NCBI RefSeq assembly: GCF_000973105.1
Contig: NC_015844.1
Coordinates: 3,592,501-3,656,500 of the forward strand
Origin: Zobellia galactanivorans
GTDB taxonomy: Bacteria > Bacteroidota > Bacteroidia > Flavobacteriales > Flavobacteriaceae
Reading direction: 5' to 3'
DNA: 64,000 nt
Below the pieces are notes generated by a model. That model saw only the letters and a list, made by a program, of their open reading frames with translations. It was not told the DNA's origin and did no database searches. Below, piece after piece: positions 4,690-52,974 of the stretch (its first letter is position 1; each line of letters starts with the position of its first letter). The position numbers and the translations under genes were made by a program.

Positions 4690-5565
4690 ATGGATTTTTA
4701 TGCGGTACTTACCGATTTTGAATCTACGCTGGAACCAAAAATTTTAGCTTTTGTAGATGCTATTTTACCTTCTGTAAGACTTTTGGCGGCAGCTATTATG
4801 GTTGTATTTGTGGGATACCATGTCATCAAATCATGGTTGGGAGAAAATGAGAAATTAGATGTCTCTACATTGGTTCGTCCATGTTTAATCTTGGCAGCAC
4901 TAGTTCTCTATACAGAGCTGGTTGTTTTACTAATAGAAAAACCAGTAGAGATTGTAAATGAAATCGTTCTTGATGGGGCAACTAAAGTAGGAGGTGCGAC
5001 ACCCGGTAGTATGAAATTATTTCGTGATAAAATGGCATATACCCAAGATACAGGAGGTGTAGATGGTGGCGGAGTTGATGATGTCATTCAGTTGCATCCA
5101 TTCCTTGAGCTTATACATCTTATTGTATTCTTTATCGCTTCTGTTGCTGGAGGATATATTCTTTTCAGGCAGCTCATTGTTAAGTGTATCTATCTAATAA
5201 TTGGACCCTTTGTGCTGGCCTTTTCACTTATTGTAGGAAACGAAAAAGTAATTGGCAGTTGGTATCAAGGCTTTATATCTGTTCTTTTATGGCTGCCTAT
5301 GCTTAGTATCGTACAAACAATTATCATATTACTCCCCGTAGAGACAACTTCATTTTCTGATAGTGATATTATATTCTCTATGGCTATGCAGGTAGTTATG
5401 ATATTTGTAGTATTTAAAGTTCCTCGTTATGCCAATATTTTAGTAGGTCAAGGGGCAGAAATGGGATCGCAGGCAGGAAATACAATTATGGGACAGGTTA
5501 AAGGTTTCCCAATGAGTGTGCTTAATAATAGGATGATGGGAAGATCTATGAAAGGTAAAAAATAA
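4690..5565 (+). CDS. TraJ/TrbL-like polytopic conjugation membrane protein
   Basis: This 291-residue protein has at least five to six hydrophobic segments (about residues 28-48, 64-86, 140-160, 166-186, 196-218 and 228-248). The inner loop is glycine-rich (DTGGVDGGGVDD) and the C-terminus is positively charged (MMGRSMKGKK). This is the architecture of VirB6/TrbL and Bacteroidetes TraJ proteins, inner-membrane channel parts of type IV secretion. CTnDOT TraJ is somewhat longer. It is the last large gene of the transfer cluster. The traK-traM genes that follow TraJ in CTnDOT are not seen, so the order is either different or truncated here. Confidence 0.55.
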   Translation: MDFYAVLTDFESTLEPKILAFVDAILPSVRLLAAAIMVVFVGYHVIKSWLGENEKLDVSTLVRPCLILAALVLYTELVVLLIEKPVEIVNEIVLDGATKVGGATPGSMKLFRDKMAYTQDTGGVDGGGVDDVIQLHPFLELIHLIVFFIASVAGGYILFRQLIVKCIYLIIGPFVLAFSLIVGNEKVIGSWYQGFISVLLWLPMLSIVQTIIILLPVETTSFSDSDIIFSMAMQVVMIFVVFKVPRYANILVGQGAEMGSQAGNTIMGQVKGFPMSVLNNRMMGRSMKGKK

Positions 5566-5574
5566 CAGGTAGGA

Positions 5575-5730
5575 ATGTTACTTGATAATGATATCAAAAA
5601 AATATTTATTAGCATAATATCAATTCTAGATAAAAGTAAATTAAACCAAAGTAATGGATTGGTTTTGATAGAAACACTAGGACGAATTGATATAGCAATG
5701 TCGAAGAGATTAAGAAGGCGTAACTCGTAA
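5575..5730 (+). CDS. Possible 51-residue ORF after the TraJ-like gene
   Basis: An ATG nine bases after the previous stop, preceded by a purine-rich AGGTAGGA, opens a 51-codon frame. It encodes a polar and hydrophobic peptide (starting MLLDNDIKKIFISIISILDK) with a basic end (SKRLRRRNS). It continues the strand and spacing of the cluster. It could be a real small protein or the N-terminal remnant of a truncated transfer gene. No homology is claimed. Confidence 0.35.
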   Translation: MLLDNDIKKIFISIISILDKSKLNQSNGLVLIETLGRIDIAMSKRLRRRNS

Positions 5731-6099
5731 TAACGTTAACTCCTTATTTTCTGTCAGGGATTATAGACTAGCGGTTAAACACAGGTTGCCGTATAAAAGC
5801 TACAACTAGTTTCTTGGATTTAGAGATTAAATTTCGTTTAGCTGTGTGATTCCGAAAAAGTAGATGTAATAGAAAACTATCATCAGAAAAGGGAAATGTT
5901 GTAAAATGTGACACTATCCCAAAAACTGTGTAAGTTAAAAATACAGAGGGTTTAGCTATTTTATAGTCCTACCTTTTTTTCATAATATGGTTAAGAACTG
6001 ATTGAGGATTATCCTCAATTTGTGATTGGCATAGACCATTTTTTGATTGCTATCAAAATAATTCAAAAAAAGAAAGACAAAATATATTGGTATAACCTA
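5731..6099. other. Gene-free stretch with a possible IS256-type end
   Basis: No convincing gene is seen in these 369 bases. At about 5908-5935 the sequence TGACACTATCCCAAAAACTG, followed by TGTAAG, resembles the terminal inverted repeats of IS256-family elements (CTGTCCCAAAAACTGTGTAA type, from memory). No transposase and no second end are visible, so this could be a solo remnant. The stretch separates plus-strand transfer genes from the minus-strand FecR gene. Confidence 0.3.
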
Positions 6100-7644
6100 T
6101 TAATTACGATTAAATTTTTGGTTTTTTAAAATAATTAGAGAACTGTCATCTTTGTCTTTTGAATACTCAATGCCCATGGTAAGAAATACGTTTTCTAAAG
6201 CATTATCTAAATTATTATGAGGAAAACTACCAGTATATAACATAGATAATTTATCTTCTATCCCTTTATAATCAATAGTAATTGGAAATTGTGATTCTAA
6301 CTGATTGATTACATGTTTAAGAGGAGTACTTTTAAAATTACTAATTCCAATAGTCCAGGTTGGTTTTTTATCAGAGGTATTTTTATCAAAAACCTCTTGT
6401 TTTTTAATGCCGTCTAAAAAACTTACTTTTTTCCCTGCAGTTAATATGGTGTTATCGTCGATAGTAGAAACTTGCACTTTACCTTCAAAACAAGCTGTTT
6501 CAAAAAAATTATCCCGTGACACTACATTAAATTTTGTTCCTAAGACATGTATATCGCCATTAGAAGTAGTCACAGTAAAATTGCTTCCTTTTTGAACTTC
6601 AAAAAATACTTCCCCATCCAGGTTTAACTTTCGATTAAAACTAAAAAGGTATTTATTATACGTTAATTTGGATAAGGCATTGACTGTAGCCAAAGAATTA
6701 TCTGGTAAAGTAACGTTTTGTTGTTGAGCAATAGAGGTTTCAATAACCGTATTTCCAAAGAAGAATAGGCTCAAACCAACTATAAATATAACACTAGCTG
6801 CATAACCTATATATCGTAAAACATTTAAATGGATTACCTTTCCTTTGCTTACAGTACTGTCTTGGAGTTTTTTCTGAAAATCAGAATAGGCTTCTTCCTC
6901 TGTTTGTTGCCCAGGGACCTTAAGTTTTGAAATTCCATCAATAATGGACTTGTAGCTTTTATAATCTTCAGAATGCTCCAACAATTCTTGCTCTTCTGCT
7001 GTGAGTTCCTTGTTAAGCCATTTTACTAAAAGTCTTTCGTAATCTGTATTATTGTTTTGAAGTTTTGCCTGAAAATCAGAATAGGCTTCTTCCTCTGTTT
7101 GTTGCCCAGGGACCTTAAGTTTTGAAATTCCATCAATAATGGACTTGTAGCTTTTATAATCTTCAGAATGCTCCAACAATTCTTGCTCTTCTGCTGTGAG
7201 TTCCTTGTTAAGCCATTTTACTAAAAGTCTTTCGTAATCTGTATTATTGTTTTGAAGTTTTGCCTGAAAATCAGAATAGGCTTCTTCCTCTGTTTGTTGC
7301 CCAGGGACCTTAAGCTTTGAAATTCCATCAATAATGGACTTGTAGCTTTTATAATCTTCAGAACGCTCCAACAATTCTTGCTCTTCTGCTGTGAGTTCCT
7401 TGTTAAGCCATTTTACTAAAAGTCTTTCGTAATCTGTATTATTGTTTTGAAGTTTTGCCTGAAAATCAGAATAGGCTTCTTCCTCTGTTTGTTGCCCAGG
7501 GACCTTAAGCTTTGAAACTCCATCAATAATGGACTTGTAGTAATTATAATCTTCAGAACGCTCGAATAACTCCTGTTCTTCTAGAGTTAATTCCCTATTC
7601 AGCCATTTTAATAAAAGCTTATTATAATTTTCTTCCATCAACAT
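6100..7644 (-). CDS. FecR-type anti-sigma regulator with four tandem N-terminal domains
   Basis: FecR proteins hold an ECF sigma factor through a short cytoplasmic N-terminal domain and receive a signal from a TonB receptor in the periplasm. Here residues 7-262 are four near-identical 65-residue copies of that N-terminal unit (LLVKWLNKELTAEEQELL, SEDYKSYKSIIDGISKLKVP). A single membrane helix follows at about 277-297, then a FecR domain at about 305-400 (VTLPDNSLATVNALSKL, LDGEVFFEVQKG, VLGTKFNV), then a DUF4974/STN-like C-terminus. Family members are usually about 320-390 residues with one N-terminal unit; this one has 514. No sigma factor or TonB receptor gene adjoins it: an IS3 element lies upstream and transfer genes lie downstream. 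Three of the four repeats are almost identical in DNA, showing recent expansion. A start at the second ATG (7638) is equally possible. Confidence 0.8.
   Translation of the reverse strand: MLMEENYNKLLLKWLNRELTLEEQELFERSEDYNYYKSIIDGVSKLKVPGQQTEEEAYSDFQAKLQNNNTDYERLLVKWLNKELTAEEQELLERSEDYKSYKSIIDGISKLKVPGQQTEEEAYSDFQAKLQNNNTDYERLLVKWLNKELTAEEQELLEHSEDYKSYKSIIDGISKLKVPGQQTEEEAYSDFQAKLQNNNTDYERLLVKWLNKELTAEEQELLEHSEDYKSYKSIIDGISKLKVPGQQTEEEAYSDFQKKLQDSTVSKGKVIHLNVLRYIGYAASVIFIVGLSLFFFGNTVIETSIAQQQNVTLPDNSLATVNALSKLTYNKYLFSFNRKLNLDGEVFFEVQKGSNFTVTTSNGDIHVLGTKFNVVSRDNFFETACFEGKVQVSTIDDNTILTAGKKVSFLDGIKKQEVFDKNTSDKKPTWTIGISNFKSTPLKHVINQLESQFPITIDYKGIEDKLSMLYTGSFPHNNLDNALENVFLTMGIEYSKDKDDSSLIILKNQKFNRN
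6859..7626 (-). repeat. Four-copy 195-bp tandem repeat inside the fecR-like gene
   Basis: The unit is 195 bp (65 codons, frame-preserving): the 5' ends of CTGAAAATCAGAATAGG lie at 6874, 7069, 7264 and 7459, exactly 195 apart. The blocks 6874-7068 and 7069-7263 are identical base for base as read. The block from 7264 differs at two positions. The promoter-proximal copy (about 7432-7626) is more diverged and probably ancestral. The exact period and identity imply recent unequal crossing-over or replication slippage, and copy number may vary between strains. Confidence 0.95.
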
Positions 7645-7850
7645 CCCTAATCAAACTCGATCAATATTAATAATATCTCTTCTGCCGTTTTGTAAAATTA
7701 AATTATTTTTATTTATTACCAGTTTCAAATCATCTTATTAACAAAAAAAATAAGATTCTTAAAAGATTGATGAAACTTTTACTAGTATTCTTTGTTTATA
7801 GTAACAAAAATAAGAGGTAGAACTTGTAAGCTCCCCCTAGATAGAACTGC

Positions 7851-8645
7851 TTAGTTTTCTAAAACTTCATTAAAGTTATTGTTTTTAATTCTTTTGGGGC
7901 TAGCCCCAAAAGAATTAAGTTCTGCGTATTTTACGGGCGGTATTTTACCCAAGGCATCGTGGGGCCTATGATGGTTATAATTGTTCATCCAGATCTGTGT
8001 CCGCTCCCTTACTTGGTCTAGGTTTTCAAAGATATATTTGTTCAGCACCCCACGTCTGTAGCTTCCGTTGAACCTTTCCACAAAAGCATTTTGGGGCGGC
8101 TTGCCCGGTTGGATATATTTGAACTCTATCCCGTGCATCTGGCTCCAATCATTGGTTATGTGGGCAATGAACTCCGGGCCGTTGTCCATTCTTATCTTTT
8201 TCGGCTTCCCCTTCCTATTGATGAGATGGTTGAGTACCCATACAACGCGATTGCTGGTCAAGGAAAAGTCGATTTCTATATGAAGTGCTTCTCGATTAAA
8301 ATCATCGATAACGTTGAACGACCTGAAGCGTCTCTTGTTTTTCAGGACATCGGTCACAAAGTCCATACTCCAAGTGTGGTTAAGTCCATCAGGCACCTCT
8401 AAGGGCTCTTTCACCCTTGCGGGCAAACGTTTCTTTACTTTTCTTCTCAAAGGCAGTCCAAGGGCCTTGTACACACGGTGGACCCGTTTATGGTTCCATG
8501 GCTTCCCTTCATTGCGCAAACGGTCGTAGGCCTTCCAGAAGCCTTCCTCCAAATGTTCTTTTGCCTTTTGCCGCAAGGCATCCTCTATTTCGGTATCGTC
8601 CTTTGGCAAAGGTTTATAATAATAGACGCTCTTGCTCATATTCAA
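7851..8645 (-). CDS. IS3-family transposase OrfB (DDE integrase domain)
   Basis: This is the catalytic half of an IS3 transposase, which cuts and joins DNA ends. The 264 residues shown start at a TTG. The frame stays open upstream to about 8726 and encodes a typical ALKP...ELV...GIS.RACRVL leader, so the active product is probably an OrfA-OrfB fusion. The rve core shows the DDE residues in [16 protein letters not shown] and [10 protein letters not shown], and ends with the usual [11 protein letters not shown] motif. No internal stop is seen. It overlaps the OrfA region in a different frame; the A6 run at 8721-8726 (minus strand) is the likely slippage point. Confidence 0.85.
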
Positions 8646-8700
8646 TACACGGCACGCCCTGCTGATACCGCAATGAACAAGTTCTTTGGCGATACTGCGC

Positions 8701-8979
8701 TTACGGCAAGGCTTCAGAGCTTTTTTCGATGATCTCTTTCGCCATTTGATGGTCCAAAGCCAAGTTGGCGTACATCTGCTTGAGCTTTCGGTTCTCTTCT
8801 TCCAGTTCCTTTATGCGCCTGAGCTCCTTGTCGCTCATTCCGGCGTACTTCGAACGCCACATGTAGAAAGCGGCCGAACTCACACCGTGTTCACGGGTTA
8901 TATCCGCAACGGTCTTGCCATTATCGAACTCGTTTAAAATCTTCGCGATCTGCGTGGGTGAAAATCTACTCTTCCTCAT
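8701..8979 (-). CDS. IS3-family transposase OrfA (helix-turn-helix)
   Basis: A 92-residue protein with an N-terminal HTH_Tnp_1-type helix-turn-helix ([10 protein letters not shown] ... [25 protein letters not shown]) and a C-terminal leucine-zipper-like helix ([21 protein letters not shown]). Both are standard for OrfA, which binds the element's ends. It ends SEALP just after an A6G run. OrfB lies in the +1 frame relative to OrfA, not the usual -1 frame. Loss of one A would fuse the two, so transcriptional slippage or a one-base change in this copy are both possible. Confidence 0.85.
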
Positions 8980-9043
8980 AATACTTTTTAAATTTAAGAT
9001 TATTATTCTACTTTTAAATAGTTCGGTTTTAAGGGAAGCTTAC

Positions 9044-10112
9044 AATGGCACTCGAATTGATTTGTTTTATAGGGTATACAATTTAGTATTGCAATGCTGA
9101 ACGCTACTGTTTTTTAAACACGAATAGATTTTGCTTTTAATATTTTTTTTGATCCAAAAACGCCAGAATACCTATTAAAATTTGATACCTTAGTTTGTTC
9201 ATAATGTTATTGTTTAAGAGATTTTTATATTCTTGCTTGCTTTTTTATTATGGTCTGATTAAGTCTTAAGCGTATTGATTATAATTCCGTTTTATTACTC
9301 TAATTGTATTAAAAATAACTTTTCTTACATTTTATGTGAGAATATATTATTGTGGTAAACTTATGGAAGTACTTAAGGAAATAATATCCTAAAAAAAACG
9401 ATTTTTATATCATGGTTTATAATGGTTAAATGTTGTGGTTTACCCTTATTTATTTTATAACACTTTTGGAAGTGTTTTTATTGGTGATTTTAAAAATAGA
9501 ATCCAAAAGAAACTATAACTAGAAAATTAAACTTTCATTTATAACCACATTCATTTACTTAAGACTTTAACCTTATAATTACCTCAATTTTGTAAAGAGC
9601 AAAAATGCTTCCCGTTGATGATCGTCTTGTATTCTTGGATGGAGTTTCCATTACAGAAGTAAATCGGCGCCTAATACAAGAAGAGAGAATAACAGGCTAA
9701 CTTGAGTTGGTGTAATAGATCATTTACAATTGCAATTGGATGATGACCATGATTATTGTCAAATGAGTATTTTTGACCTAAAGAGAAGAATTCTTATTAA
9801 CCTAGCTATTTCAAAGAAAGATTTCGATTGACCGACGTACACGGACACGTAATGAAGGATATTCTAACCTGATTTCTTCTGTGGTTGGAAAGGCTTAAGA
9901 CCGTATCATTGGGCTTAGGGGTTGCCGCGACCTAAGAAAGTGTAAGGGGCAATGCAAGACCATGTGGTTTTGCATTGCCCCTGTCTATTTGTACTGTCGA
10001 TGCTTCGCGCGGCCTGAATCGGTTTTTGCCTTGTTTACGGTAGTGGAAATACGGAAAGTATCCTTGTGCAAGTCAAAAGAACCCTAGTTTAAAACAACGA
10101 TTTTAAATTCCT
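9044..10112. other. About 1.07 kb without a recognisable gene; decayed DNA with hairpins
   Basis: This AT-rich stretch is broken by stops in all frames. A 31-codon frame from 9605 (MLPVDDRLVFLDGVSITEV) is the longest suggestive piece, and I cannot assign it. Two hairpins are visible: AACACTT/AAGTGTT at 9459-9476 followed by a few Ts, and a much stronger one at 9945-9982. Base composition becomes less AT-rich from about 9800, which may mark the edge of the accessory segment. I see no tRNA, integrase or attachment repeat. Confidence 0.5.
9945..9982. repeat. Strong perfect hairpin, 17-bp stem
   Basis: AGGGGCAATGCAA (9945-9957) pairs perfectly with TTGCATTGCCCCT (9970-9982). The inner G-ACC/GGT-T bases extend the stem to about 17 pairs, including one G-T, around an ATGT loop. 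No T-run follows on either strand, so it is not a classical terminator. It lies 131 bases beyond the stop of the ThuA gene, which is transcribed toward it, and could be a 3'-end stabiliser or a dispersed palindromic repeat. Confidence 0.7.
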
Positions 10113-11027
10113 TTATTTTCCGATAGGGGAGTCGTCACATTTTAAGTCGCCGACAACATACTGTAGGCCATCCAAGAAAAACTGAAGTAACTCTGGGTGG
10201 TCTAAACTTTGGGCGTTATGTGATGGGGAGCTATAGAAAACACGGCCTTTGCCATGTCTTTTGATCCAAGAAACATAGTTTACCTTTTCGTCGACTTCCT
10301 TTTTCATGCCTTCTAGCTTATCGATTTCAATGTAAAGTAAGGGTCTGAAGTTATAATCGAAATAGGCATTGTTGAAAAAGTAGGGTTCATCCACATGGGT
10401 AAGGCCATTTCCTTTAAAGGCTTGTACTAAGGGGTGCTTAGGGTCTACTTCCTTAACGTGCATTTCTTGCTGTCTCGGATGGTAGTCAAAGCTGCCGCCG
10501 GTCATTTGGCTGAACTCCTTAGAGTTGTTCTGAACGGTAATGGCGCCATGTAGGATCATAAGTCCGCCACCCTTGGCTACGTAGTTCATCAAATTGGTTT
10601 CGTACTGCTTTGATAGGGCGGTGATTTCTTGGTCTGGAAGATTTGAATTTTGCTGTAATAAATCCCAGAACAAATCTCGCTTCGGTCCTGAGGGATTGCA
10701 ATTGTTAAATACAACCGCATCATATTTTTTTAGGTTCTTTTTATCGAAGCTTTCAACGTCGTAAGCGATGTGGACTTCAAAGGCATCGGTTTTTGTGCCT
10801 AAAATCTTAAGCATTTCTGCGTTATGCGGAATGGTCCAATGGTCAAATCCCGTAGCTTTTGAAAAGACCAATATCTTTTTCTTGGATACGTTCTTTACCG
10901 TAGGTTCGGACGGGGCCATCCGTTCAATCTTGGCAAGCCATTCATCGGTAATCTTGAAATCTTCGGTTTGTTGTGCGAAAATGAAACCGGTAACAAGTAA
11001 AAATAAGGCGGTAATATTCTTTTTCAT
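10113..11027 (-). CDS. Exported ThuA-domain protein
   Basis: The 304-residue product has a Sec signal peptide (KKNITALFLLVTGFIFAQQ), then a ThuA domain (PF06283) across most of the protein. Family landmarks are KKILVFSKATGFDHWTIP, YDAVVFNNCNP, NYVAKGGGLMILHGA, the histidine-rich DYHPRQQEMHV and a terminal RVFYSSPSHN. ThuA proteins have a class I glutamine-amidotransferase-like fold. They recur in loci with Gfo/Idh oxidoreductases and sugar 3-keto chemistry; ThuA itself was linked to trehalose/3-keto-trehalose use in rhizobia. The exact reaction is not established. It lies 15 bases after the LacI gene on the same strand and is presumably co-transcribed with it. Confidence 0.8.
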   Translation of the reverse strand: MKKNITALFLLVTGFIFAQQTEDFKITDEWLAKIERMAPSEPTVKNVSKKKILVFSKATGFDHWTIPHNAEMLKILGTKTDAFEVHIAYDVESFDKKNLKKYDAVVFNNCNPSGPKRDLFWDLLQQNSNLPDQEITALSKQYETNLMNYVAKGGGLMILHGAITVQNNSKEFSQMTGGSFDYHPRQQEMHVKEVDPKHPLVQAFKGNGLTHVDEPYFFNNAYFDYNFRPLLYIEIDKLEGMKKEVDEKVNYVSWIKRHGKGRVFYSSPSHNAQSLDHPELLQFFLDGLQYVVGDLKCDDSPIGK

Positions 11028-45035: not shown

Positions 45036-47081
45036 TCAATATTGTAAAGGCAACCAAACGGACATATCATTGACACCTCTATTTGCCCAAGCAAAATAGG
45101 GTATCATTTTAATTGGGGTTTTCTTAAGTTCGGTTTTTACCAATGGCTTGTATAATTGCTTTGACCAATCTTCATTTGGTAATATTTTGGCTTCGCCTTC
45201 CAAGACTGTGACCCCGGACAAAAGATCGGCTTCGTATTTTGGTTGAAGCTTTATATCTGAAGGAAGCACGATATCCTTGATATTGCTACCTGCCGCTAAG
45301 TCTTTACTTTCCAAACAATACACAATAGGGCCTCGTTTTACCGCTACTTGGTTTCGTGTTTCTTCAACGTTCGGGTCGGCGGTAATCAGACGAGGGGCCA
45401 TTGGTAGTTCAAGCTCGACCACATCGCCTTTTTTCCATTTGCGGTTGACTTCTGCGTAGGACCCTGCTTTTGGTGATTGGTCTTGCTTCTCTCCGTTTAC
45501 TTTTATATTGGCACCCTCGGCCCAAGCGGGAATTCGTAGCATGAGGGCATATTCTTTTTTCTTTTTGGAATCAATGGTGATTTTGATGTTTCCGTCCCAA
45601 GGATAATTGCTTTCTTGTGTTAGTTTGATGTTACTGCCATCGGCTAAATCGGTATCAAGGACATTGCTTCCGTATAGGTTTACCCAGATGCCTTTTTCCG
45701 AAGTGCTATAGGCATAGGTGTGCATTTTGGCGATGGTGCGTATGATGTTGGGAGGGCAGCAGAAAACCGACATAAATTCCCCGCGTTTGCCTTCGTCTTT
45801 GGTATTTTGGGGATGCCCCTCAATAAAACGTAAGGGGTTGGTGTAAAAGAAATGCTCACCGTCCAAAGAGATTCCTGAAATGGCGCTGTTGTAAAAAATG
45901 AGTTCCATGATATCGGCAAAACGTCCTTCGCCATTCATCAAGAACATACGCCAGTTCCACATGGCGTTTCCTATATTGGCACAGGTTTCATTGTAGGCTT
46001 TGATATTGGGTAACTCATAGTCTTGCCCATAGGCCTCGGCAACAATGGCATGATTTGAAATCCCGAAGTGATGCGGGCCTGTAGCTCCCGTTATGTACAT
46101 CTTTTGGGTGCTTACGTTGGTCCAAATACGTTCTAGGGCATCCTTTAGGGCCTGGTCTCCGGTTTCGGCATATAGATCGGCAACACCGGCATAGAGGTAA
46201 TTAGCGTGACCTGCATGGCCAACGGCTTTCGATTCTTCCCTTATTGCGGTTCCCCTTTGGCTATGATCCATGCCACGGTGGTCTAGGCGATCTTTTGGCG
46301 CCGTACCCAACATATCTACAAATGTTTCCGTGAGCTCAAGGTATTTTTTGTCGCCCGTGGTACGGTACATCTCAATAAGGCCCATGTAGTGGGGCGGGTT
46401 CCAGTCAATACGTGCAAGTTCTGGAGAAGGTTCTTTAAAGTGGTCGTAAATATTGTCGCTTGCCTTGATGGCGATATCGAGAAAGTTCTTTTTCCCTGTA
46501 ATTCTATAGTGTACGCAAGCGGCCGTCATCAGATGGCCAAAGTTGTAGAATTCGTGTGAAGGACCATTGGTATAGGGTTTTTCATCACTTTTAAAAGGAT
46601 GTGCCGACTCGTGCAGAAAACCGGCAATACCATGGCCTATTTGAATTTTTGTGTGGATATAGCCGTCAGGGCGCTGTGCTTTGGCAATTACCGCGATAAT
46701 CTCGTCCATCTGTTGGTTGATCTTTTCGTCTTTGGTCATCGCGTATTCGTAGGCCAAGGCCTCAGCATACTTGTAAAAGTCCCCATCGGTAAAAGACCAC
46801 CCCCTGAATTCGCCTTCCTCTAAACCGGCGGCTACTTTAAAATTGGAGTAGGCATGAATGATTTCGGGGTCGTCCATCAATCGGCCTAAGTTTGGGATCA
46901 TAACCTCGTGCGCCTGCTTTAGTTTTTCGGCCCAGAAACCGTCTGTCCATCGACAGTCGTCGATATCTATGGTCTTTAGGTTCATATGAGGGGTTTTGGC
47001 GTTGTTTAATACCCCGTGTTCTTGCGCAAAGCTGCAAATGGATAATAATAGGGTGCTGGCAAGTGCAATTGTTCTTTTCAT
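45036..47081 (-). CDS. GH127 glycosidase, exported (predicted 3,6-anhydro-D-galactosidase)
   Basis: A 681-residue GH127 enzyme with a Sec signal (RTIALASTLLLSICSFAQ). GH127 retains configuration using a cysteine nucleophile with a zinc site. Glu365 and Cys367 in YNETCANIGNAMWNW and the Cys441-Cys442 pair in VFCCPPNIIRTIA match the Glu and three Cys of the founding beta-L-arabinofuranosidase. The name family is arabinofuranosidase, but related flavobacterial enzymes release 3,6-anhydro-D-galactose from carrageenan oligosaccharides, which fits this locus. It leads the unit with two sulfatases, about 70 bases downstream of a promoter shared in motif with the GH127 gene at 50890. It is the most divergent of the three GH127 paralogues here. 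Confidence 0.85.
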   Translation of the reverse strand: MKRTIALASTLLLSICSFAQEHGVLNNAKTPHMNLKTIDIDDCRWTDGFWAEKLKQAHEVMIPNLGRLMDDPEIIHAYSNFKVAAGLEEGEFRGWSFTDGDFYKYAEALAYEYAMTKDEKINQQMDEIIAVIAKAQRPDGYIHTKIQIGHGIAGFLHESAHPFKSDEKPYTNGPSHEFYNFGHLMTAACVHYRITGKKNFLDIAIKASDNIYDHFKEPSPELARIDWNPPHYMGLIEMYRTTGDKKYLELTETFVDMLGTAPKDRLDHRGMDHSQRGTAIREESKAVGHAGHANYLYAGVADLYAETGDQALKDALERIWTNVSTQKMYITGATGPHHFGISNHAIVAEAYGQDYELPNIKAYNETCANIGNAMWNWRMFLMNGEGRFADIMELIFYNSAISGISLDGEHFFYTNPLRFIEGHPQNTKDEGKRGEFMSVFCCPPNIIRTIAKMHTYAYSTSEKGIWVNLYGSNVLDTDLADGSNIKLTQESNYPWDGNIKITIDSKKKKEYALMLRIPAWAEGANIKVNGEKQDQSPKAGSYAEVNRKWKKGDVVELELPMAPRLITADPNVEETRNQVAVKRGPIVYCLESKDLAAGSNIKDIVLPSDIKLQPKYEADLLSGVTVLEGEAKILPNEDWSKQLYKPLVKTELKKTPIKMIPYFAWANRGVNDMSVWLPLQY

Positions 47082-47150
47082 AGTTGAGTCTTAAAAAGAT
47101 GAGTGTTTTATTTAAGTTGATAAGGCCGGTGTATCGGTACCGGAACCTTA

Positions 47151-47210
47151 CAAATAAAGCACTAAAAGGAGTCTTTCCTTCTGCGTGGATTAACTGCCAT
47201 TGGCACTATT
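47151..47210 (-). promoter_or_regulatory. Promoter region of the GH127-sulfatase unit with two shared boxes
   Basis: On the minus strand, AATAGTGCC (47210-47202) precedes TTTATTTG (47158-47151). Both boxes recur with identical 51-base spacing upstream of the GH127 gene ending at 50890. TTTATTTG resembles the TAnnTTTG -7 box with one mismatch, and no TTG -33 box is present. This fits a weak promoter needing an activator bound near AATAGTGCC. The gap 47082-47262 shows nothing else. Confidence 0.55.
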
Positions 47211-47262
47211 CTATCTTTTTGGTATGGTCTGGTCTGTTTTTTTAATTTTTTAGTTTTGTTAT

Positions 47263-49236
47263 CTAATCGTTCCAAATTACAGGCATAAATACGGTCATTT
47301 CCGCTTGGCCGCGATTACTCCATGCGTAATAGGGTATAAGTTGGGTTTTATAGGGCATCCATTCCGGTTTTTGAACCGGTCTGTAGATGCCATCACCCTT
47401 GTCTTTTCGAATAAAAATTTCTCCATCCAGCGTAGTGATCCCCCCTAAAAAATCGGGTCGATAAGTGGGGTCAAGTTTTTTGTTCCCATTGAAATAAACA
47501 TCTAGAATGTCGGTATCCTTAGGTAGGTCGGGAGACTCTATACAGTAGACTATCGGTCCGCGTTTTATGGCTATTTGGTTACGTACTTCCTCAATTCTAG
47601 GATGGCCTTCTATAAATTCAGCTTCCATGGGCATATCAAGAATGAGCACATCGCCTTTTTTCCAATTGCGTTCAATATGGGCAAAGCTTCCGGGTTCTAA
47701 AAGCATGGTCAATTCTTCACCGTTCAGTGTGAGTTTTGAATTCTTGGCCCATTTCGGAATACGTAAACTAATGGAGAAAGCTTCCGTTTTACACTCTTCA
47801 ATATTCAATTTCACCCTTCCTTCCCAAGGATATGCCGTTTCTTGGGAAACCTTAATAGGGGAATCATCTAGTAGACGCGTGTCTAGATGATTGGCCCCGT
47901 AGAGGTTAACACTTATTCCGTTTTCCGAAAGGCTATAGGCCCATTCCGAAACGGTAGCAATGGTGCGGACTAAATTTGGAGGGCAGCAGAAACAGCTTAG
48001 ATACGGTTCCCTGTTGGGGGTCTCGGTGACATTTTCATGTGCGTTGTAGTCTCTGGTATTGTTGAGCATCCGTAACGGATTCGCGTAAAAGTATTCCTTC
48101 CCGCTTACGCTGATACCGGAGAGGGCACTATTGTAGAGCACCAATTCAACGATATCGGCATATTTGGCCTCGGCCTTCAGGTTCAGCATGCGATAGCTGA
48201 ACATGGCGTTACATAAATTGGCGCAGGTTTCGTTATAGGCGGTCATATTGGGCATCATATAGGCATCGATAAAGCCCTCTTCGATCATATCGCGATTTAC
48301 CGAAGCCCCATAATGGGCCTGGCCCACGGCACCGGTTACGTACATTTTTTTGGTCGTCACATTTTTCCATAAGCGGTCCAAGGCGTCAATGAGGGCCTTT
48401 TCTCCTGTTTCGGCATAGACGTCGGCAGCACCGGCGTAATAGTATAAAGCAAGCACGGCATGGCCTACGGCTTCATGCGATTCACGTAAAGGCGTACGCT
48501 CCTGTACCATATCGCCAATAGGATATCCCTCGGTGGTCGGGTGGTGTTTTACTTCGTATTTTCCGCGGTTATCGATGAACTTTTCGGCCAAGGCCAAATA
48601 CTTTTTGTCGCCCACCGTACGGTACAGTTCTACCAAGCCCATTATTTGGGTCTGATTGAAGCCGAAGCGGCCGTAATGTTTGGTGTCGGGCATAAAAATG
48701 GTGTACAGTAAATCGGCATGCTTGATGGCAATATCGAGGAAATTACCTTGCCCGGTAACCCTGTGGTGAATGCAGGCGCTGATAAGCAAATGCCCGGTAT
48801 TGTACATTTCGTGGTACTTTCGGTTTTCGTAACGGTCTACGTCTTTCCGAAGCTGTACTTGGGTCTGAAGGTATCCGTCGTTTTCTTGGGCTTTGGCGAT
48901 GATGTCTATGTATTCGTCCAATTCCTTTAATAATGCTTTATCCTTGGTATGGGCGTAAACGTAGGTTTTGGCTTCCATGAATTTGTAGAAATCACCGTCA
49001 TGCCAAAACATGCCTTGGTGTTCCCCTTCCTTTTCACCGGCCGCTATTTTAAAATTGTTAAGGGCATGGCCTACATCCCCACACAGTACATCGCCCATGT
49101 AAGGGACCATGGCATTGGTACAAAGTTGGAATTTATCGGCCCAAAAACCAGAGGTCCACTGGCAATCGCCGATGTTCAAGCTTTTTAGTTGGGTATACGG
49201 ACTGTTCCTATTGGCAGGGGTGGCTTGTTTCATCAA
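47263..49236 (-). CDS. GH127 glycosidase without signal peptide
   Basis: A 657-residue GH127 enzyme, close paralogue of the one at 50890 (shared SLNIGDCQWTSGFWADKF / SIDIGDCRWTEGFWAEKW starts). It keeps YNETCANLCNAMFSYRM and FCCPPNLVRT, the Glu and Cys residues of the zinc-thiolate catalytic site. Unlike its two relatives it has no signal peptide (it starts MMKQATPANRNSPYTQLK), so it is expected in the cytoplasm, where it could split disaccharides brought in by the MFS porter encoded 33 bases upstream. It is the last gene of the GH127-MFS-GH127 unit. Confidence 0.85.
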   Translation of the reverse strand: MMKQATPANRNSPYTQLKSLNIGDCQWTSGFWADKFQLCTNAMVPYMGDVLCGDVGHALNNFKIAAGEKEGEHQGMFWHDGDFYKFMEAKTYVYAHTKDKALLKELDEYIDIIAKAQENDGYLQTQVQLRKDVDRYENRKYHEMYNTGHLLISACIHHRVTGQGNFLDIAIKHADLLYTIFMPDTKHYGRFGFNQTQIMGLVELYRTVGDKKYLALAEKFIDNRGKYEVKHHPTTEGYPIGDMVQERTPLRESHEAVGHAVLALYYYAGAADVYAETGEKALIDALDRLWKNVTTKKMYVTGAVGQAHYGASVNRDMIEEGFIDAYMMPNMTAYNETCANLCNAMFSYRMLNLKAEAKYADIVELVLYNSALSGISVSGKEYFYANPLRMLNNTRDYNAHENVTETPNREPYLSCFCCPPNLVRTIATVSEWAYSLSENGISVNLYGANHLDTRLLDDSPIKVSQETAYPWEGRVKLNIEECKTEAFSISLRIPKWAKNSKLTLNGEELTMLLEPGSFAHIERNWKKGDVLILDMPMEAEFIEGHPRIEEVRNQIAIKRGPIVYCIESPDLPKDTDILDVYFNGNKKLDPTYRPDFLGGITTLDGEIFIRKDKGDGIYRPVQKPEWMPYKTQLIPYYAWSNRGQAEMTVFMPVIWND

Positions 49237-49269
49237 GGTAAAAAATGTTTGATATTATAAGTTCGATAT

Positions 49270-50850
49270 CTAAGGCTGTGGTTTTGGTTTAGGGGCCAAG
49301 GCCAGTTGCACTTCTTCAATGGACATGTTTTTGGTTTCCTTTAAATAGAAATACAGGATTACCATCCCGATGGTCACTATAATGGCATAGAACAATAATG
49401 TTAAGCTTATGCCCATGGTCGCCAATTGCCAAGGGAAAAATTTCTGTACCAGGTAACTCACAAAACTCGTGATCAAGGTGAAAAACGGAATGGCGATACC
49501 TCTGAGCGAAATAGGGAAAATCTCGGAAAACAAGACCCACATTACGGGTCCTACCGAAAAATGAAAGGCCCCGATAAAACTGAGTATGCCCAACAAAATA
49601 AGAAGGGCGTTTATATCTGCCGCTTTTTGTAGCAGTAGACCGGAGTAATTTCTGGCGTCCTTTTCCCCCAAGGTCTCGATCAGGGCCGACTTAAAACTGA
49701 TGTCGTTATCAAAGGGCACATCGATCAGGGGGGTCAATCTTTCTGCATTGGGTATGGAAGACATTTCGGTAATAGCACTTTCGGTTATGGTGTAATTGGC
49801 GGTATTAAATCCGTAATAACAAACGCCAAGACTCAGCACGATCCATAACATCCCCCATATGATCATGGGTCTTCGGCCCATTCTGTCTACTAAAAGTAGG
49901 CCTAAAACAGTAAAGACGATACTGGTCAGGCCTATATAAATGGCCTGTGCAAAAGCGGCATCGGTTCCGATGCCCAACTGTTCGAATACGGTAGGGGCAT
50001 AGAAAAGAATGGCGTTGATGCCGGTGGCCTGTTGTGCTATCGCAATGGTCATGGCAATAATCATGGTCACCCGCATCGGCTTTGCAAAAATTTCTTTCAA
50101 TTGCGTAAGCATAGAACGATCTTGGTTGCTATTTTCGATACTGTACCGCATTTCTTGAATTTTCTGGGCAATCTCAGTTTCTGGTGTAACTTTCAGAAGC
50201 ATTTGTTTTGCTTCTTCTTCCCTCCCTTGATAGAGTAACCAAGCCGGGGATCGAGGAATGAAAAACAAAAGAACGAACCACAAGAGGGCAAAAATCACTT
50301 CGGTTGCCAACATCCACCGCCAAGTGTATTCGTTAATCCCTAGGGCAGCTACCCAATGGGCATCGGAATCTGCAAGGCCAAGGATCATATAATTGATGAA
50401 ATAGGCGGCCGATAAGCCCACAACGATGTTGATCTGGGTCATCGATACCAATTTACCCCGCCATTTGGGAGGTGCTATTTCACCGATATACATTGATGCC
50501 AATGAAATTGAACTAAAAGCGAGTCCGCCCAAGAAGCGTGCAGCGATAAGGGTCGAGTATGTAGGTGCCAAAGAGGAACAGGCCGCTGAAATAAGATAAA
50601 GGGTGGCAGCAATCATCAGGGTGGTTCTTCGTCCATATTTATTACAGGCGTGTCCTACAAAGACTAGGGCCAAAAGCACCCCCATGGCAGGAGCCCCCAC
50701 AACCGACCCAAGTTCTAGGTCGGTAAGTGAGAATTCCTGTGTAATAAACTTTACCGTCCCCGATATTAAAGCGGCATCCAGCCCGAAGACAAAACCACCC
50801 ATTGCCACAATGGTTGCATACGTAAAAGCATTCCTTTTATAAGAACCCAT
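49270..50850 (-). CDS. Sugar porter family MFS transporter
   Basis: A 526-residue inner-membrane proton symporter of the sugar porter group. YATIVAMGGFVFGLDAALISG is helix 1, VGHACNKYGRRTTLM and DRMGRRPMI are the two RxGRR-type loop motifs, and PRSPAWLLYQGREEEA follows helix 6. QQATGINAILFYAP is helix 7 and FHFSVGPVMWVLFSEIFPISLRG is helix 10. Helices 9 and 10 are separated by an unusually long polar loop (about residues 355-420) facing the periplasm. It lies between two GH127 genes (39 and 33 bases) and probably imports desulfated carrageenan-derived disaccharides or anhydrogalactose. Confidence 0.9.
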   Translation of the reverse strand: MGSYKRNAFTYATIVAMGGFVFGLDAALISGTVKFITQEFSLTDLELGSVVGAPAMGVLLALVFVGHACNKYGRRTTLMIAATLYLISAACSSLAPTYSTLIAARFLGGLAFSSISLASMYIGEIAPPKWRGKLVSMTQINIVVGLSAAYFINYMILGLADSDAHWVAALGINEYTWRWMLATEVIFALLWFVLLFFIPRSPAWLLYQGREEEAKQMLLKVTPETEIAQKIQEMRYSIENSNQDRSMLTQLKEIFAKPMRVTMIIAMTIAIAQQATGINAILFYAPTVFEQLGIGTDAAFAQAIYIGLTSIVFTVLGLLLVDRMGRRPMIIWGMLWIVLSLGVCYYGFNTANYTITESAITEMSSIPNAERLTPLIDVPFDNDISFKSALIETLGEKDARNYSGLLLQKAADINALLILLGILSFIGAFHFSVGPVMWVLFSEIFPISLRGIAIPFFTLITSFVSYLVQKFFPWQLATMGISLTLLFYAIIVTIGMVILYFYLKETKNMSIEEVQLALAPKPKPQP

Positions 50851-50889
50851 AAATTGTTTAAGTTAAGTTATGGCCAAGCAGGGGCGGTC

Positions 50890-52974
50890 TTAATCCCAGA
50901 TTACCGGTAAGAAAACCGTCATTTCACCTTGGCCTCTATTGCTCCAAGCATAGTAAGGTATAAAATTGGTTTTAAAAGATTCGAATTCGGGAGCACTGAC
51001 TTCTTGGTACATTTGACCGATTTTGTCCTTACGGATAAGAACATTGCCCTCAAGGGTAGTTATACCTCCTAGAAAATCGGGTCTAAAGGTAGGGGTAAGT
51101 TGTTTTTTCGAGGAGAGGTAAACATTGGTGATATCGGTTTTTTCGGGTAGGTCGGCCGATTCAATGCAGTACACTACAGGTCCTCGTTTCAAGGCAACTT
51201 GATTACGGACTTCCTCGATGCGCGGGTGCCCTTCTATGAACTTGGTCTCCATGGGCATATCAATAGTGATTTCATCCCCCTCGGCCCATTGTCTTTCTAT
51301 TTTGGCGAACGTACCGGGTTGCGCCTTGGCTACCTTTGTACCGTTCACTTTAATTTGGGTACCCTTTGCCCAACTGGGTATACGAAGGAGAACCTCAAAA
51401 GCCTCGGCTTTACATTCGTCAACGGTAATTTTTACGGCGCCGTCCCATGGGTAATCGGTTTTTTGGGTCAGTTTAAGGGGAGAGCCGTCTAAAAGTGTCG
51501 TTTTTAATTCGTTGCCTCCATAAAGGTTGACGGCAATTCCGTTTTCTGATTTGCTATAGGCCCATCCCGGCGATTTGGCAATGGTACGCACTAGGTTTGG
51601 AGGACAGCAGAAACATTTAAGGTAGGGTTGTCTTTCGGGGAATTCAACGTTCATTTTTTCATAATCCAAGGCCCCGTCAATTTTCCGAAGCGGATTGGAG
51701 TAATAGTAGTTCTTGCCATCAAGGCTGATGCCCGAGAGCCCACTGTTGTGCAGTACAAGCTCCATAATATCGCCATGTTTGGCATCGCCCGTTAGGGTGA
51801 GCATTCGGTAATTAAACATGGAATTACAGATATTGGCGCAGGTTTCGTTATAAGCCGTCATGTTGGGCATCATGTATTCATCGATAAAACCTTCTTCAAT
51901 TTTATCGAGACGGGAAGATCTTCCATAATGGGTTTGGCCGATAGCCCCGGTAATGTACATTTTTTTGTTCGTTACGTTGTCCCATAATCGCTCTAGGGCA
52001 TCGATCAGTGCCTTTTCCCCGGTTTCGGCATATACATCGGCAGCACCGGCATAATAATACAAGGCCAGTACGGCATGTCCTACGGCTTCGGTCTCCTCTC
52101 GAAGCGGAACGCGCTCTTGTACCATGTCGCCAATAGGATAGCCCACCGTGGTCTCGTCATCCTCAATTTTATAGGTACCGCGCATGTTTATAAATTGCTC
52201 CGCCAACTCTAGGTAACGCTTGTCTTTGGTTGTACGGTATAGTTCTACCAGTCCCATAATCTGGGTCTGATTGAAACCAAAACGTTTAAGGTGGTCGGGT
52301 TTCGGGGAAAAGAGTTTGTACAGATAATCGGCATGTTTTACGGCAATATCAAGAAAATTGGTTTTCCCGGTCAGGCGGTAATGAATACATGCACTGGTAA
52401 GCAAGTGGCCACTGTTGTACAGTTCGTGATATTTTCTATTCGTAAAGGGCTCTATATCATCTCTAATGATGGCGGGTGTGGATAAGTATCCATCGTCTTG
52501 CTGGGCTTGTGCGATAACGCTTATGATCTCATCTATTTCCTCAACAATTTTTTCGTCTTTATTTACACCGTAAAGGTACATTTTGGCTTCCATCCATTTA
52601 TAGAAGTCCCCATCATGCCACCAAAAGCCTTTGTGCTCGCCTTCTTTGAGTCCTGCCGCAATTTTAAAGTTATTGTAACCATGGCCAATATCGCCTTTTA
52701 GAATCTCGCCCATATGGGGTATCATGGTTTCTTCGGCAACTTTCCACTTTTCGGCCCAAAAGCCTTCGGTCCACCGGCAGTCTCCGATATCGATACTTTT
52801 TAATTTGACATGTGGACTGTTGGTATTGTTGATAATTCCACTTCCGGAATCTAAATGGGCCGCATAGTCTTTTGAAGCCGGTTTTTCGTGTTTTAAGGCG
52901 TCCGGATTTGTCGTGTTTTGTTTACATGAAAGTACAGCGAGCAGCGTGCAGAGCGAAAGGGTTAATTTTTTCAT
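50890..52974 (-). CDS. GH127 glycosidase, lipoprotein (predicted 3,6-anhydro-D-galactosidase)
   Basis: A 694-residue GH127 enzyme with a lipoprotein signal (LTLSLCTLLAVLSCKQ, lipid Cys about 17), so it should sit in the outer membrane or face the periplasm. Catalytic residues are in YNETCANICNSMFNYRM and FCCPPNLVRTIA. It is very similar along its length to the cytoplasmic GH127 at 47263, indicating a duplication followed by relocation. It is the first gene of the GH127-MFS-GH127 operon. Its promoter, 157 bases upstream, shares boxes with the one at 47151. Confidence 0.85.
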   Translation of the reverse strand: MKKLTLSLCTLLAVLSCKQNTTNPDALKHEKPASKDYAAHLDSGSGIINNTNSPHVKLKSIDIGDCRWTEGFWAEKWKVAEETMIPHMGEILKGDIGHGYNNFKIAAGLKEGEHKGFWWHDGDFYKWMEAKMYLYGVNKDEKIVEEIDEIISVIAQAQQDDGYLSTPAIIRDDIEPFTNRKYHELYNSGHLLTSACIHYRLTGKTNFLDIAVKHADYLYKLFSPKPDHLKRFGFNQTQIMGLVELYRTTKDKRYLELAEQFINMRGTYKIEDDETTVGYPIGDMVQERVPLREETEAVGHAVLALYYYAGAADVYAETGEKALIDALERLWDNVTNKKMYITGAIGQTHYGRSSRLDKIEEGFIDEYMMPNMTAYNETCANICNSMFNYRMLTLTGDAKHGDIMELVLHNSGLSGISLDGKNYYYSNPLRKIDGALDYEKMNVEFPERQPYLKCFCCPPNLVRTIAKSPGWAYSKSENGIAVNLYGGNELKTTLLDGSPLKLTQKTDYPWDGAVKITVDECKAEAFEVLLRIPSWAKGTQIKVNGTKVAKAQPGTFAKIERQWAEGDEITIDMPMETKFIEGHPRIEEVRNQVALKRGPVVYCIESADLPEKTDITNVYLSSKKQLTPTFRPDFLGGITTLEGNVLIRKDKIGQMYQEVSAPEFESFKTNFIPYYAWSNRGQGEMTVFLPVIWD

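Follow-up and report, generated by a model that had tools for sequence, protein, structure and literature searches.

How a switch that is usually pictured as a 1:1 complex of sigma and anti-sigma factor would behave when a single regulator carries four sigma-binding-type domains is the question raised by a fecR-like gene of Zobellia galactanivorans. We analysed a window of 64,000 nucleotides (the whole stretch of DNA considered here) from a genome that consists of one contig of 5,521,712 bases with a completeness of 100. The gene lies at positions 6100..7644 of the window on the minus strand, and encodes a protein of 514 residues with four N-terminal domains, a predicted membrane helix, a FecR domain and a FecR_C domain. 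The preliminary description of this DNA had listed one FecR and one DUF4974-type domain, and both score above the Pfam cut-off. The FecR domain PF04773 (residues 300-391, 6472..6747, minus strand; E 5.7e-16) reaches 59.2 bits compared with a gathering score of 24, and the Bacteroidota-type C-terminal domain FecR_C PF16344 (residues 436-500, 6145..6339, minus strand; E 1.1e-8) reaches 35.4 bits compared with 24.4. The FecR part also matches PDB entries 4m0n and 4m0h in a sequence search, and a Gly-Thr pair at residues 369-370 inside this domain is kept in the ortholog from G143, a genome of another genus. The membrane helix (residues 276-294, 6763..6819, minus strand) is predicted from a low-confidence model and a hydrophobic stretch recognized by eye. 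With four N-terminal copies the protein departs from the pattern of one such domain per protein; the FecR and FecR_C domains and the type of N-terminal domain agree with the family, and the gene is a variant of the FecR family.

The four copies are all on the minus strand and in frame, at start-to-start spacings of 195, 195 and 195 bp. Copy 1, the most diverged one, covers residues 7-71 (7432..7626), copy 2 residues 72-136 (7237..7431), copy 3 residues 137-201 (7042..7236) and copy 4, which adjoins the membrane helix, residues 202-266 (6847..7041). TRF describes the array as a period of 195 with 3.9 copies, 95% matches and 0% indels over 6858-7617. The spacing, the TRF result and the four copies within residues 7-266 confirm that the domain is repeated four times in tandem, as first described. 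The statement that two blocks are identical base for base is also correct for the cores of copies 3 and 4, which differ at none of 165 nucleotides and share an exact run of 186 nt. Copy 1 differs from copies 2-4 at 23-25 of the 165 core positions. The longest exact direct repeat within the array measures 246 nt, while elsewhere in the window there is one exact direct repeat of 20 nt and none of 25 nt, which excludes a chance repeat.

Tandem repeats that are nearly identical are easily misassembled, and the true gene could then be single-copy. The copies carry diagnostic bases, however, and the fecR gene of Zobellia uliginosa DSM 2061 (match 302-1843 on NZ_FTOB01000016.1) also has four copies in a separate assembly, with species-specific differences between the two records. 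An assembly artefact is therefore very improbable. The same two genomes bear on the earlier proposal that copy number varies and acts as a dial: both comparable genomes, and there are only two, have four copies, which lends it no support.

In order to determine how widespread this arrangement is, a tandem two-domain profile was searched against overlapping samples of 397 genomes of the family, 395 of the order, 395 of the phylum and 9 of the genus, giving at least one match in 274, 61, 38 and 9 genomes, respectively. Among the matches listed, the two-domain span occurs in one uninterrupted frame only in the window genome and in Z. uliginosa, with two matches each. The family matches listed reach about E 1e-14, so that a tandem gene with weaker domains could escape in that sample; the order, phylum and genus matches show no such limit. 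The profile represents the flavobacterial domain type and would overlook other types of domain in tandem. Within Zobellia the tandem gene is present in 2 of the 9 genomes, and a single-domain match occurs at least once in every one of the 9. Matches with a longer DNA span in G591, G338, G353 and G152 were rejected because each reads as a single N-terminal domain preceded by a sigma gene or by sequence rich in stops. Two further matches, in G228 and G019, span profile positions 1-125 and 1-124 with just 62 and 61 DNA codons.

A full-protein search of 397 genomes, in which no more than three candidates were scored for each genome, gave matches in 305. Among the matches listed, the other uninterrupted frames do not exceed 341 residues, and the frames of 481-524 residues (G214, G028, G029 and G096) carry internal stops. 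Among the matches listed, uninterrupted frames above the length of 480 residues suggested beforehand are those of the window and of Z. uliginosa. A Pfam FecR search of 380 genomes of the class found matches in 147 and a longest frame of 431 residues among the matches listed; this survey is weak evidence, as the window's own gene is absent among them. When a genome collection was searched with two short patterns, the sole close relative was again that of Z. uliginosa. The 123 pattern matches in viral contigs included no relative, and the 49 matching records among 72,556 plasmid records were all below 60% identity, none covering more than 80% of the query. Among the literature titles and abstract openings listed, none describes a tandem, duplicated or multivalent anti-sigma domain, and the available part of PMC7406223 makes no mention of tandem, duplicated, two or multiple ASD. 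The four-copy fecR is real, occurs in just two of the genomes surveyed and is undescribed in the publications listed by the searches; the initial impression that no multivalent FecR is known agrees with the surveys, where no other tandem case appears among the matches listed.

The window copies align with the N-terminal domain found in the usual, single-copy FecR proteins of this family. The fecR ortholog of G143 is single-copy (315 residues, 68% identical over the shared part), and when its N-terminal domain was artificially doubled it was 62% identical to a two-copy stretch of the window protein, which upholds the original assignment of the repeats to the FecR N-terminal domain. The W, L and E positions that are invariant over 14 aligned rows are all kept in the window copies; the nearly invariant F position is L in copies 2-4. 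The conserved core announced earlier does recur in each copy, but as EQELLE or EQELFE and not as EELLE, and copy 1 reads SEDYNYYKSIIDG. These comparisons support the view that the repeats are copies of a FecR-type N-terminal domain of the sigma-binding type. Some Pfam side-matches of the repeat part were discarded because no single stretch passes on its own: PTEN2_C2, RFX_DNA_binding and DUF6711 exceed the whole-protein cut-offs with a score summed over the repeats, and FtsH_ext and TPR_DENND3 are below cut-off, copy 1 alone giving only FtsH_ext at E 0.086.

In class I anti-sigma domains, according to the available part of PMC7406223, a three-helix bundle binds sigma4 and is joined by a flexible linker to a fourth helix, which binds sigma2. 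The model of copy 1, calculated from an alignment of the eight repeat sequences, contains helices 4-15, 21-28, 31-45 and 54-68, with a mean pLDDT of 78 but a pTM of only 0.47. At a pLDDT of 39 the model of the complete protein is unreliable, though this helix order recurs in it four times and is followed by a further helix at 276-294. Comparison of copy 1 with 350,542 PDB chains using Foldseek listed six matches at an E of 10 or less. The first three, 5wuq_D, 6in7_A and 5wuq_C, belong to the SigW/RsiW and AlgU/MucA complexes and, being 69-79 residues long, are probably the anti-sigma chains; ranks 4-6 are unrelated proteins. As for the agreement of the repeats with the FecR N-terminal fold, the predicted helix order of copy 1 fits that of class I, while the fold matches are non-significant (E 4.0-5.7). 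A PDB sequence search with the N-terminal domain returned nothing credible (two matches, E 1.2). In the part of PMC7406223 that is available, E. coli FecR is assigned to group AS243, which aligns poorly with other groups, and class I domains are said to adjoin only 6% of Bacteroidetes ECF genes.

Copy 1 stands apart from copies 2-4 in the window, and the eight copies of the two Zobellia species differ from the G143 domain at 39-46 of 165 core positions. This suggests that a duplication came first and was followed by a later expansion of the second copy. A possible alternative source of the divergence between copies 1 and 2 is recombination of two diverged alleles that predated the array. In Z. 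uliginosa, copies 2 and 4 are 1 nt apart and both carry a three-base block of copy-1 type, showing that the copies exchange sequence.

We then compared the surroundings of fecR with those of its ortholog. The order in G143 is TraJ-like gene, ECF sigma, fecR (convergent to sigma), susD and susC. A TraJ-like conjugative transposon gene (4690..5565, plus strand; TIGR03782, E 4.1e-6, 26 bits, far below cut-off) is the neighbour of fecR in the window as well, but the interval between the two (5566..6099), which is occupied by the ECF sigma gene in G143, contains none here. Before the TraJ-like gene, the window genome encodes a TraG-family ATPase that exceeds its cut-off (TIGR03783, 516 bits), as well as MobC-, TraK- and TraM-like proteins that are below theirs, and the G143 counterparts of these conjugative genes are 69-93% identical. 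From its gene content, the region around the TraJ-like gene and fecR is a conjugative element. A 690-residue ORF on this element (L086 4592-6664, minus strand) has a match to the defence ATP-binding family NF047742 that is below cut-off (82.7 bits compared with 175). Two of the 9 Zobellia genomes have the TraJ-like gene, and they are the two with the four-copy fecR.

The nearest of 36 Sigma70_r2 matches in the window genome is about 51 kb from fecR. This match is the ortholog of the sigma gene that neighbours fecR in G143, and is located on the same chromosome at G000:C1:3546808-3547317 (L083 8809-9321); it is intact and 80% identical to the G143 sigma. The SusC, SusD and GH18 genes lie at about 3553.4-3559.8 kb, and the sigma, SusC and SusD orthologs are about 40-51 kb from fecR. 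The GH18 gene (L085 1470-2831), which has a PKD-like domain and directly follows SusC/SusD, is a possible clue to the substrate. The receptor is SusC-type (TIGR04056 over cut-off), and the match of its N-terminus to STN is below cut-off (E 0.0046, 17.2 bits compared with 28.4). The orthologs of ECF sigma and of SusC are intact in both Zobellia species (98% for SusC in Z. uliginosa), and that of SusD is intact in the window genome. Since sigma is not adjacent to fecR, their pairing rests on orthology. In Z. uliginosa, fecR and sigma are on separate contigs, each with the neighbours known from the window genome. Because both arrangements are shared, the separation of sigma from fecR and the amplification of the copies both appear to predate the divergence of the two species.

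Two IS3-type ORFs lie about 200 bp upstream of fecR on the minus strand: an orfB-like transposase ORF with an integrase core (7851..8645) and an orfA-like ORF with an HTH_Tnp_1 domain (8701..8979), both identified with Pfam. IS-derived sequence begins at the same point upstream of fecR in Z. uliginosa, and the contig ends there. The IS3-type stretch 7820-8990 is matched a second time over its full queried length (97%), at G000:C1:558779-559949, and over part of it at 3563228-3563567. A perfect 17-nt inverted repeat without spacer, possibly a terminator, is located at 7885-7918 near the end of orfB. Compared with G143, the region is rearranged, and fragments of genes and IS elements are repeated in it. 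A ThuA gene fragment (PF06283) of 366 bp is present in the same orientation at G000:C1:3543156-3543521 and at 3602604-3602969 (window 10104-10469), with 96% identity, and these two pieces flank the conjugative-element region on both sides. Farther along the window, a group of ORFs at 45036-52974 comprises three of GH127 type (PF07944) and, in their midst, one for a sugar transporter (PF00083).

Substitutions were counted within the array and between the two species. Copies 1 and 2 of the window differ by 10 synonymous and 13 nonsynonymous changes, corresponding to a dN/dS of 0.26 (P 0.008, simple binomial), and copies 1 and 3 of Z. uliginosa give 0.35. Between species, the array shows 4 synonymous and 13 nonsynonymous differences; neutrality is not rejected (P 0.42), although exchange tracts inflate the nonsynonymous count. 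The rest of fecR (3 synonymous, 5 nonsynonymous, dN/dS 0.43) and the TraJ-like gene (9 synonymous, 16 nonsynonymous, dN/dS 0.52) show few differences, and the sigma gene has 5 synonymous and 4 nonsynonymous ones (dN/dS 0.17, P 0.012). Nucleotide differences between species amount to 17 of 780 in the array compared with 8 of 747 in the rest of fecR (P 0.11).

We propose, with about even confidence, that the gene encodes a FecR-type sigma regulator whose sigma-holding N-terminal domain was amplified from one to four copies, and that it stayed intact while being split from its sigma gene. The initial suggestion that such a protein could bind several sigma factors at once is plausible. In this proposal the protein would span the membrane once, and the SusC-type receptor, with its weakly STN-like N-terminus, would touch the periplasmic part of FecR. 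When there is no signal, the cytoplasmic copies would hold the ECF sigma factor, one sigma per copy and thus up to four per molecule, so that fewer molecules, about one quarter of the amount of regulator, would keep the system silent. Upon signalling, proteolysis would free the whole bound set at once. According to the available part of PMC9249621, FecR-type proteins are proteolysed in steps once the receptor has signalled, and they also cleave themselves at a Gly-Thr bond. The amplification may even compensate for the co-expression that was lost when the sigma and regulator genes separated. The complete picture, a natural multivalent anti-sigma factor that holds up to four sigma factors per anchor, needs less regulator for silence, releases them in one burst and arose in the lineage of the sigma/regulator split on a conjugative element, is more tentative, and we consider it possible but short of probable. 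If true, a tetravalent regulator would alter the threshold, steepness and burst size of the switch and, as a natural case confined to one gene, would allow a test of how a sequestration switch is set by the stoichiometry of binding, while a split pair on a mobile element would be a possible route to rewired cell-surface signalling modules.

The array could instead have expanded neutrally: once sigma had moved off and an IS3-type element had come to lie upstream, the role of the protein would have been lost, and slippage or unequal crossing-over would have amplified the 195-bp unit in frame. The distance of 51 kb to the nearest sigma match and the IS3-type ORFs next to fecR make such a neutral or decaying state more serious, and the rearranged region and the 13 nonsynonymous and 4 synonymous differences between the arrays of the two species are consistent with it. 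The low dN/dS between copies 1 and 2 argues against it, as do the frame of 514 codons, uninterrupted in the two species, and the number of copies, which stays at four in both despite sequence exchange between the copies. Since fecR, sigma and SusC are intact in two species, a functional role appears favoured by a modest margin, and we regard neutral expansion as a less probable but serious rival. A further explanation is that the domains pair within one chain or act as a pro-sigma tail, so that what changes is the response to the signal and not how many sigma factors are kept silent. Going by the title of Jensen et al. 2015, PupR reportedly has a dimerising cytoplasmic domain, which would fit pairing; the full-length model (pLDDT 39) shows no confident contacts between copies. 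FecR-type N-termini can have pro-sigma activity: according to the available part of PMC9249621, cleavage frees sigma in the anti-sigma type, whereas in the pro-sigma type, to which E. coli FecR belongs, it produces a fragment that activates, and the N-terminal part of E. coli FecR activates FecI. With such pro-sigma activity known for part of the family, the window protein may activate its sigma factor instead of holding it. We consider this explanation unlikely.

The proposed tetravalent regulator can be compared with several known systems. It resembles FecR-type regulators, both E. coli FecR and the Bacteroidota FecR/FecR_C proteins, in its sigma-binding-type N-terminal domain, its FecR and FecR_C domains and, probably, its membrane helix, and the ancestral module likewise includes an ECF sigma factor together with a TonB-dependent receptor; it differs from them by its four N-terminal domains and its non-adjacent sigma gene. 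The 315-residue ortholog of G143 (L012) resides on a related conjugative element with the same TraJ-like neighbour and the same sigma, SusC and SusD relatives. In contrast to the window gene, it has one N-terminal domain, an adjacent convergent sigma gene, and susC-susD directly upstream of fecR. An adjacent sigma-fecR pair in the window genome itself (G000:C1:3021602-3023161) combines a single-domain FecR that is 34% identical to the window protein with a neighbouring sigma gene whose product is 47% identical to the G143 sigma, and a single-domain match like that of this pair is found in 9 of 9 Zobellia genomes. Finally, copy 1 is similar to the class I anti-sigma domains of RsiW and MucA in its predicted three helices, linker and fourth helix, and these are its best-ranked, though statistically weak, fold matches in the PDB. 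To our knowledge, the known class I anti-sigma proteins have one such domain each, compared with four in the window protein.
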